A stretch of DNA of 64,000 bases from Wohlfahrtiimonas chitiniclastica DSM 18708 (GTDB lineage Bacteria > Pseudomonadota > Gammaproteobacteria > Cardiobacteriales > Wohlfahrtiimonadaceae), in NCBI RefSeq assembly GCF_000375345.1, contig NZ_AQXD01000001.1:450600-514599 (forward strand). Direction: 5' to 3'. How positions within the stretch are numbered: position 1 is the first letter of the stretch; the number at the start of each line of letters is the position of its first letter. A model generated the notes under the pieces. That model did not search any database and had not been told where the DNA came from. It saw only the letters and a program-made list of their open reading frames with translations. Position numbers and translations under genes: made by a program. Of the stretch, positions 60,792 to 62,511 are shown piece by piece.

Positions 60792-61709
60792 TTACGATTT
60801 TTTTGACGTAAAGTCATAATCTGTCTCTTGATAGACAAAATAATTGAGCCAATTTTGGAAGAAAATGCTCGATGCACTCATCCATCGTGTTTGAATGGCT
60901 TGAGTGGGATCATCATTTTTAAAGTAGTTGCTCGGAATGGTCATCATGCCTAGGGCAGAGTCACGCTGATACTCTTTTAAGAGAGTCTCTTTACCATATT
61001 CAGGATGACCACTCATAAAGACTTGGCGACCCGTTTTTGATGCCACTAAGTGAATGCCAGAGACTTCAGAGCTTGCGATCACCTCTAATTCAGGGTGATT
61101 GCGCGTGGCAATCGGATCACTCTCTGTGTTGCGTGATTGTGGCACATAAAAAAGATCATCCATGCCAATGAGCAGTTTAGAATCGGGTTTTTCTTTGATG
61201 TGTTCAAATACACCTGTTAATTTCTCTTTGAAAATGTTCTTCTCGATGCCATAAAAATACTTCAAGGCCGCTTGGCTGCCCCAACAGATAAAGAGGGAGG
61301 CAAACACATGGGTTTTGCTCCATTCAAAGATTTTGGTCAATTCATCCCAATAGGTCACTTCCTCAAAGTCTAAGAGCTCAATAGGTGCACCTGTGATGAT
61401 CATGCCATCGAAATACTCATCTTCAATGTCGCTGAAAAAACGGTAAAATTCATCTAAATGCACTTGCTTGGTGTTTTTAGAGGTGTGGTTTTCAATGGCC
61501 AGTAGCGTGATGTCCACTTGCAAAATGCCATTACTGAGTTTACTGAGCAATTGGGTTTCTGCGGTGATTTTGTCAGGCATTAAGTTCAAAATACAGATGC
61601 GCACCGGACGAATGTCCTGTGTATTTGCACGCTCTGGATTCATCACAAAGATGCCATGATCTTTGAGAATTTGTGAAGCGGGTAAGTTTTCCGGAATAAT
61701 CACGGGCAT
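60792..61709 (-). CDS. metA: homoserine O-acetyltransferase (MetA family)
   Basis: First committed step of methionine synthesis (305 aa), activating homoserine. Catalytic cysteine lies in FICWGSQAALKYFYG; the glutamate and histidine expected for the triad lie in SGHPEYGKETL. Residue 111 is glutamate (TGAPIE), which in this family specifies acetyl-CoA; succinyl-specific enzymes have glycine there (E. coli TGAPLG). So the product is probably O-acetylhomoserine. AAAAGGAG lies seven bases before the ATG. Expression appears to be controlled by a methionine-codon leader attenuator immediately upstream. Confidence 0.94.
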   Translation of the reverse strand: MPVIIPENLPASQILKDHGIFVMNPERANTQDIRPVRICILNLMPDKITAETQLLSKLSNGILQVDITLLAIENHTSKNTKQVHLDEFYRFFSDIEDEYFDGMIITGAPIELLDFEEVTYWDELTKIFEWSKTHVFASLFICWGSQAALKYFYGIEKNIFKEKLTGVFEHIKEKPDSKLLIGMDDLFYVPQSRNTESDPIATRNHPELEVIASSEVSGIHLVASKTGRQVFMSGHPEYGKETLLKEYQRDSALGMMTIPSNYFKNDDPTQAIQTRWMSASSIFFQNWLNYFVYQETDYDFTSKKS

Positions 61710-61734: not shown

Positions 61735-61763
61735 TAAAAAAACCAGAGTGTTGTCACTCTGGT
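61735..61763 (-). terminator. leader (attenuator) terminator upstream of metA
   Basis: On the minus strand ACCAGAGTG, loop ACAA, CACTCTGGT (61763-61742) followed by a run of seven T. It is an intrinsic terminator inside the metA 5' leader, 26 bases before the metA start, so it can only be regulatory. Confidence 0.9.
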
Positions 61764-61841
61764 GGATCAATTTTTGGGTAAAGATGAGCGTTAGAGTGAC
61801 TCTACAGTAAGGTTCGAGAGCCACTCAATTGAGTAACTCTC
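61753..61841 (-). promoter_or_regulatory. alternating RNA segments of the metA attenuator
   Basis: Minus-strand segments: S1 GAGAGTTACTC (61841-61831) pairs with S2 GAGTGGCTCTC (61826-61816), 11 bp including two G-U. S2 can instead pair with S3 AGAGTCACTC (61803-61794), 10 bp with one G-U. S3 GTCACTCT (61800-61793) can pair with S4 AGAGTGAC (61760-61753), 8 bp, which blocks the terminator stem S4:S5. S1 begins at the last base of the leader-peptide stop codon, so a ribosome at the stop would cover S1. Confidence 0.8.
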
Positions 61842-61876
61842 TAAAGCATCATCATTAACGCGGATGGGTGGGTCAT
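61841..61876 (-). CDS. methionine leader peptide of metA
   Basis: An 11-residue frame MTHPSALMMML with three consecutive ATG codons followed by CTT and TAG. It sits about 33 bases after a predicted transcription start and immediately before the attenuator stems. Clustered codons for the end product just before such stems are the hallmark of trp-, his- and leu-type leader peptides. The Shine-Dalgarno is poor (AAAG 14 bases upstream), the weakest point of the case. Confidence 0.75.
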   Translation of the reverse strand: MTHPSALMMML

Positions 61877-61915
61877 GTTTAAGTTTACTTTAGTAACATT
61901 GTTGGACTGAAAAGT

Positions 61916-61944
61916 ATCAAACCATTTCGGATAAAAAGTGTCAA
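61916..61944 (-). promoter_or_regulatory. putative promoter for the metA leader transcript
   Basis: On the minus strand a perfect TTGACA (61944-61939) and TTTGAT (61921-61916) with a 17-base spacer. It overlaps the last bases of hutD and would start the transcript near 61909. Confidence 0.55.
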
Positions 61945-61947
61945 GGG

Positions 61948-62511
61948 CTATTTGAGGTCAATTTCCATTATTAGGCACGAAGCCATTGAAAACGGCGCAT
62001 TAAATTTTATATGCCTCTCATCATGCTCTGAGAAAAAGAGCGCATCTAAGGGCTCAAGCGCTTGTCCATTTAGGGAACATGCCGTCAATGCAATGATGCA
62101 TGTGGTCAAAGAAGATCGCTGATAATCATTGTCTGTAAAATCAATACGCACCATTGAATGACTGGCGTGGCGCGTATCGGTAATGATGCCGCAATCTAAC
62201 GCAGGCTCAACACAATGGATCATTTCCGTAGTGCTTTCACCACTAAAAGTAATGGGTTGCCCTGATTTTGTCAGGGTATGGAGCGCACCATCAATCAATA
62301 GTTCAATCGATTGCCCCGTTAACAGTGCTAAGCTTCTTTGGCAATGCGGGAAATGAGAAAAGGGCCCTGTGTGTTCAACAGATGCCATGCTCACACGCCA
62401 AATGAAGTCATCCATCGTGGCATTTTGGGGATGGATCATCACCTCGCGCGTGGTGCCAAGGCCATTTTTCCAAGGTTTGACCGTTAGGGTGTTAAAGGCG
62501 ATTTTTTGCAT
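61948..62511 (-). CDS. hutD: HutD family protein
   Basis: Cupin-fold protein (187 aa) of the HutD family, linked with histidine utilisation. The N-terminus [18 protein letters not shown] matches the PWKNGGGxTREI signature; [15 protein letters not shown] follows. HutD is proposed to tune flux through the Hut pathway, but its biochemical role is unsettled. It overlaps the preceding ProY/HutT-type permease gene by 20 bases, supporting the Hut link; hutUHIG are not in the window. Confidence 0.87.

Follow-up and report, generated by a model that had tools for sequence, protein, structure and literature searches.

The metA gene of Wohlfahrtiimonas chitiniclastica DSM 18708 is preceded by a leader that encodes a short peptide with three consecutive Met codons and that can form a chain of mutually exclusive RNA pairings ending in a terminator, and a paralogous copy of this leader precedes metY. 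We observed this anatomy, its conservation, the second copy and its folding logic across Wohlfahrtiimonas, the one genus within which conservation of the element is known. We propose that transcription of metA is attenuated by a his-type, ribosome-mediated mechanism that responds to charged elongator Met-tRNA, and that the paralogous copy acts likewise on metY, and we put the probability of this reading at about 0.9.

Layout of the metA leader

The metA leader was analysed in a window of 64,000 nt (the whole stretch of DNA under study), which comes from a genome of 1.99 Mb. Its features, in window coordinates, are as follows.

61916..61944, minus strand: probable sigma-70 promoter TTGACA-17-TTTGAT, read directly from the sequence; adjoins the hutD stop codon
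61841..61876, minus strand: leader peptide frame MTHPSALMMML*, 12 codons (ATG ACC CAC CCA TCC GCG TTA ATG ATG ATG CTT TAG)
61847..61855, minus strand: three consecutive Met (ATG) control codons, invariant in 12/12 leaders
61839..61855, minus strand: S0, the Met/Leu/stop region, a possible partner of the 3' half of S3 (S0:S3' helix)
61831..61841, minus strand: S1, GAGAGUUACUC, whose first base is the G of the leader stop TAG
61816..61826, minus strand: S2, partner of S1 or S3 (pairing in the 12-leader alignment)
about 61793..61803, minus strand: S3, partner of S2 or S4, its 3' part pairing with S0 (12-leader alignment)
61753..61763, minus strand: S4, the 5' arm of the terminator or the 3' arm of the antiterminator (terminator scan and alignment)
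61736..61750, minus strand: S5 (61742-61750) and the U-tract (U7) down to 61736 (terminator scan, 9 bp with a T7 tail)
60792..61709, minus strand: metA, homoserine O-acyltransferase, 305 aa (PF04204, E 1.5e-121)

A preliminary description of this DNA had reported the peptide MTHPSALMMML, with three Met codons in a row, in the minus-strand leader of metA, and it was present as stated; so was the abutment of the leader stop codon on S1. The five-segment chain with a U-tract that had been described was right in its coordinates and pair lengths (S1:S2 11 bp, S2:S3 10 bp, S3:S4 8 bp and S4:S5 9 bp), but the sixth segment, S0, had been missed. With S0 included, the layout would be functionally like the six-segment his attenuator. 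S4:S5 was the strongest terminator-like site of the region in the terminator scan, and the Shine-Dalgarno sequence of metA, GGAG, lies between the U7 tract and the gene. The best NCBIfam model for metA was MetA_acetyl, at 419.7 bits and under its cut-off of 460.5 bits. The loci closest to the window's metA belonged to Wohlfahrtiimonas, strain G9077 being 98% identical.

The window's metA leader folded 4.8 SD better than its dinucleotide shuffles. A chain of four long alternative pairings occurred in 0/3000 dinucleotide shuffles for the leader of each of three genomes; under the strict overlap rule used in this test, two of the three real leaders carried the chain and the third fell narrowly short. 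The comparative evidence, which follows, is stronger than that from shuffling. On the other side of the promoter, a HutD-family gene (PF05962; window 61948-62511, minus strand) stops a few bases short of the -35 box of metA. This HutD flank is common to the window and to genome G015, and the other four Wohlfahrtiimonas genomes have a different, AT-rich sequence upstream of the leader.

Conservation of the leader and a second copy upstream of metY

The metA leader element was found in all six Wohlfahrtiimonas genomes searched, though metA identity falls to 80% and the upstream flank differs in four of them. The promoter motif TTGACA-17-TTTGAT/TTTTAT lies ahead of the leader in 6/6 genomes. Across the six metA leaders the peptide body is variable (MTHPSALMMML, MNTTNLQPMMML, MNTTNLQLMMML, MNTLTFQPMMML, MNTNQFQPMMML), while the end MMML is invariant and the stop codon always overlaps S1.

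A covariance model trained on the six metA leaders only was used to search 32 genomes of the order, and it returned one further strong match in each Wohlfahrtiimonas genome (6/6, E 1e-15 to 1e-18). The gene directly after this second copy is metY in five genomes, and in the remaining one the contig breaks off before that point. The product of metY is O-acetylhomoserine sulfhydrylase, the next methionine enzyme (TIGR01326, 576 bits, over the cut-off). The preliminary description, which had dealt with metA, is amended accordingly: the element is not unique to that gene. The metY leader peptides (MNLLFVIEMMML, MNLFVIEMMML, MKFLFVVEMMML) have little in common with those of metA except the MMML end, and their reading frame has undergone conservative changes and the in-frame deletion of a codon, which is what coding sequence would be expected to show. 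In most metY leaders a Shine-Dalgarno-like GGGAACAG or AGGAACAG stands just before the ATG. The weak point conceded earlier, that the metA leader peptide has no good Shine-Dalgarno sequence, thus holds for the metA leader but not for most of its paralogues.

MMML is present in 12/12 leaders, and MMML followed directly by a stop in 6/6 metA and 5/6 metY leaders. The comparison suggested in the preliminary description, a search for runs of ATG codons in related genomes, therefore gave an invariant run, with the alternative pairings kept alongside it. The remaining metY leader is that of the window's own genome (L115:3885-4009, minus strand), where the stop codon reads TGG instead of the TAG of its close relative G015, so that the open frame extends into the stems of the putative attenuator; S0:S3' keeps its pairing at this position as G-U.

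Alternative pairings and the predicted switch

Pairing was assessed in an alignment of the 12 leaders (six metA and six metY). The paired cells amounted to 100% for S1:S2, 96.4% for S2:S3, 97.8% for S3:S4 and 96.3% for S4:S5, compared with 33-50% in slid controls. Compensatory changes in the stems, another check that had been proposed, were seen in part: two terminator pairs (A-U/G-C) and one S1:S2 pair changed on both sides, but no pair of S2:S3 or S3:S4 did so in this alignment, and these two pairings therefore rest on conservation and folding.

The best placed of the other explanations is a metabolite-binding riboswitch (e.g. for SAM) coupled to a terminator, in which the ATG run would be conserved merely through its pairing with the S3 flank. 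A terminator and alternative stems do exist, and in most leaders the S3 flank is indeed a partner of the ATG/Leu/stop stretch: the S0:S3' helix measures 9-21 bp in 10 of the 12, with 21 bp in two metY leaders. In the metA leaders of the window and of G015 it is down to 6 bp, and the minimum-energy fold of the first of these uses GCGUUA:UAACGC in a shifted register. However, the Met codons are still invariant in four metY leaders whose longest S0:S3' helix takes in only 2-3 of the nine Met-codon bases, so that pairing alone does not account for them. Homologous leaders keeping the terminator without the Met codons had been named beforehand as an outcome that would speak against attenuation; the opposite was seen, the codons being kept where their pairing partner was not. 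The frame is also open from a conserved ATG and changes by in-frame indels and conservative substitutions, while the peptide bodies of the paralogues diverge. No Rfam family, SAM/SAH riboswitches and T-box included, matched the Wohlfahrtiimonas leaders at E ≤ 1 (a weak match in L115, E 0.36, falls at the end of metY, away from the leader), and the loops contain no conserved aptamer-like core in the 12-leader alignment. A riboswitch is thus very improbable here.

Somewhat less probable still is a reading at the DNA level, in which blocks of the form GAGTnACTC would serve a hypothetical methionine-gene repressor as operators, the stems arising as a by-product of their palindromes. S1, S2 and S3 each resemble this 9-bp palindrome, and strong model matches occur upstream of metA and metY only. 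Yet S2 and S3 are 10 nt apart in most leaders and 13-15 nt apart in the others, which breaks helical phasing, and the blocks belong to the transcribed part of the leader, well past the -35 and -10 boxes. Operators would also leave unexplained both the U-tract terminator with its compensating changes and the MMML* codons.

Attenuation by the leader peptide is the best explanation. As inferred from the anatomy and the comparison, the leader would be translated, ribosomes would stall on it, and read-through would depend on methionine. With ample Met-tRNA, the ribosome would reach the stop codon, where its leading edge would cover S0 and exactly S1; S2 would then pair with S3, S4 would be free for S5, and RNA polymerase would terminate before metA. 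With scarce Met-tRNA, the ribosome would stall with the first (or second) ATG in the A site, covering S0 and leaving S1 free. In that case S1:S2 would form, S3 would capture S4 before S5 emerges, and transcription would enter metA. In untranslated RNA, S0 would pair with S3 in most leaders, clearly in those of metY, giving termination by default.

These states were compared by folding each leader up to a point just past S4, at the stage where S5 has yet to be made, while a ribosome was taken to mask the RNA to base +15 of the P-site codon. With the ribosome waiting for the first Met codon, S1:S2 and S3:S4 formed, S3:S4 being at least 0.83 in 11/12 leaders; the exception was the G017 metA leader, with S3:S4 at 0.19. 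With the ribosome at the stop codon, its footprint ended exactly at the last base of S1, and S2:S3 was at least 0.86 and S3:S4 at most 0.13 in 12/12 leaders. Folding thus agreed with the alternative pairings put forward in the preliminary description, S2:S3 when Met-tRNA is ample and, in all but one leader, S1:S2 with S3:S4 on stalling. A stall at the third ATG behaved like the stop in 11/12 leaders, and the first one or two ATG codons would therefore be the sensors. Without a ribosome, the metY leaders gave S0:S3' at 0.99-1.00 and S3:S4 at 0, leaving S4 free, so that termination is predicted; the metA leaders were mixed, and the window's own favoured S3:S4. As a positive control, the terminator arm of E. 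coli thrL was sequestered at 0.99 with the ribosome at the Thr codons and at 0.3-0.4 with it near the end. Net sequestration of the S4 arm was only modestly unusual, with 0-17 of 200 shuffled inserts giving a value as large; the specific S3:S4 exchange, rather than net sequestration, is the consistent signal. In the finished transcript at equilibrium, S4:S5 beat S3:S4 in every state, and this calculation is hence uninformative on switching. Read-through must accordingly be kinetic, taking place during transcription, as co-transcriptional models require.

Least probable of all is that attenuation is real but responds to a general slowdown of translation, or to the terminated RNA or peptide acting in trans, instead of to Met-tRNA: any ribosome pause near the stop could shift the pairings, and trans-acting attenuator products are reported for S. 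meliloti trpL (PMC7298713), but it is difficult to see, if methionine specificity is set aside, why triple Met codons should stand before exactly the two enzymes that take homoserine to homocysteine.

Known attenuators and methionine control

Leader-peptide attenuation is textbook for his, trp, thr, leu, ilv and phe. The his attenuator of enterobacteria combines a run of control codons, six alternating segments, a stop codon placed so that the finishing ribosome covers the next segment, and a default terminator. The Wohlfahrtiimonas leaders share with it the codon run, the stop placement and, in most of them, the six segments with alternating pairing; termination by default is predicted for the metY leaders, the metA leaders being mixed. 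They differ in that the control amino acid is methionine, that there are two separate targets instead of one operon, and that the control-codon segment pairs with S3 and not with its immediate neighbour. E. coli thrL showed the same behaviour in masked-ribosome folding and differs by its Thr/Ile codons and fewer segments.

Methionine control in proteobacteria has been attributed to MetJ, MetR, SahR/SamR and SAM/SAH riboswitches, and attenuation and leader peptides go unmentioned in a survey of this control across about 200 proteobacterial genomes (PMC4239095). An RNA element with a terminator does occur upstream of the two equivalent enzymes, metX and metZ, in beta-proteobacteria, but no leader peptide is described for this metXZ element and its conserved regions are pseudoknot-like (PMC4239095). 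The preliminary description knew of no proteobacterial leader that uses Met codons in this way. This stands for the gammaproteobacteria, for which we found no earlier methionine leader or two-gene regulon in full-text searches that covered mainly non-subscription papers. It does not stand more widely, and Wohlfahrtiimonas is not the first methionine leader proposed. For C. jejuni, a 2013 study predicted that the 20-aa MetL, which has three Met codons and lies before metBA, acts as an attenuating leader (PMC3847290), and a 2025 report describes its translation start as seen by Ribo-seq (PMC11955535).

MetL resembles the leaders described here in being a short ORF with three Met codons and in giving an early-terminated RNA before methionine genes (PMC3847290); it differs in belonging to another phylum in current taxonomy, in its metBA target and in its length of 20 aa. 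The searched text of its published descriptions contained no analysis of alternative pairing and no test of regulation. Compared by published descriptions alone, MetL is probably independent of the Wohlfahrtiimonas leaders. In S. lividans, metL before metNIQ has also been proposed as a methionine leader peptide, but its Met codons are scattered (MSTTSDRTPATEATTTPGARCMCRRMCAF), it has no clear terminator and its target is a transporter (PMC8079986). The same full-text searches gave no experiment on the regulatory step for any of these earlier leaders. Set beside the Campylobacter and Streptomyces cases, which are so far predictions only, the present one suggests more than one origin for methionine leaders.

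Other known methionine regulators were searched for as well. MetJ (PF01340) was absent from all 18 genomes of the family, the E. coli control being positive, and no Rfam family, including SAM/SAH riboswitches and T-box, was detected in the 64,000-nt window at gathering thresholds. It is possible, though we would not give it even odds, that metA and metY form a dedicated Met-codon attenuation regulon of two unlinked genes which replaces MetJ and SAM riboswitches in this gammaproteobacterial genus, and which tells a shortage of elongator Met-tRNA (stall, genes on) from a failure of initiation (S0:S3', genes off, at least for metY). If true, such a two-signal regulon would overcome a difficulty peculiar to methionine, which also initiates translation: starvation lowers the charge of both elongator and initiator tRNA, so a ribosome must still be able to start on the leader if it is to stall there. 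The question of initiation versus stalling is made directly testable by the presence of two natural copies in each genome, a single one of which, the metY leader of the window's genome, has lost its stop.

The proposed attenuators seem confined to the genes for the two reactions that convert homoserine into homocysteine. Methionine synthase in the window's genome is encoded at another locus, an operon of MesX (PF08908), MetE-core and a flavin-reductase-like gene (L167, G000:C1 around 290989-293000), and this operon has no Met-codon leader. The MTHFR (PF02219) and MetH-type S-methyltransferase (PF02574) families are absent from the same genome, which together with the MesX/MetE-core operon suggests folate-independent methionine synthesis.

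Among 80 metA genes from diverse taxa, none outside Wohlfahrtiimonas had a Met-run leader of this kind upstream, the metY upstream regions of 32 genomes of the order carried the leader in Wohlfahrtiimonas only, and under strict filters a covariance search matched the window's genome alone among 369 of the class. Weak model matches in sister genera (L121-L123) looked like ordinary terminators, lacked the Met-run frame and were rejected. In most sister-genus genomes metY is followed by metA, and neither has a Met-codon leader. Upstream of metY, sister genera carry a different, highly conserved element of ~70 nt, GCGATATAGCTATTCCTTAAGCG..CTAAGTTTATGTTTCTAATTTTTTGGACTTAGCG (L146-L149, L151, L152, L155-L157, L159, L160). 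Nothing in Rfam matches it, its hairpin arms covary at three pairs, and it is possibly an undescribed methionine-related riboswitch.
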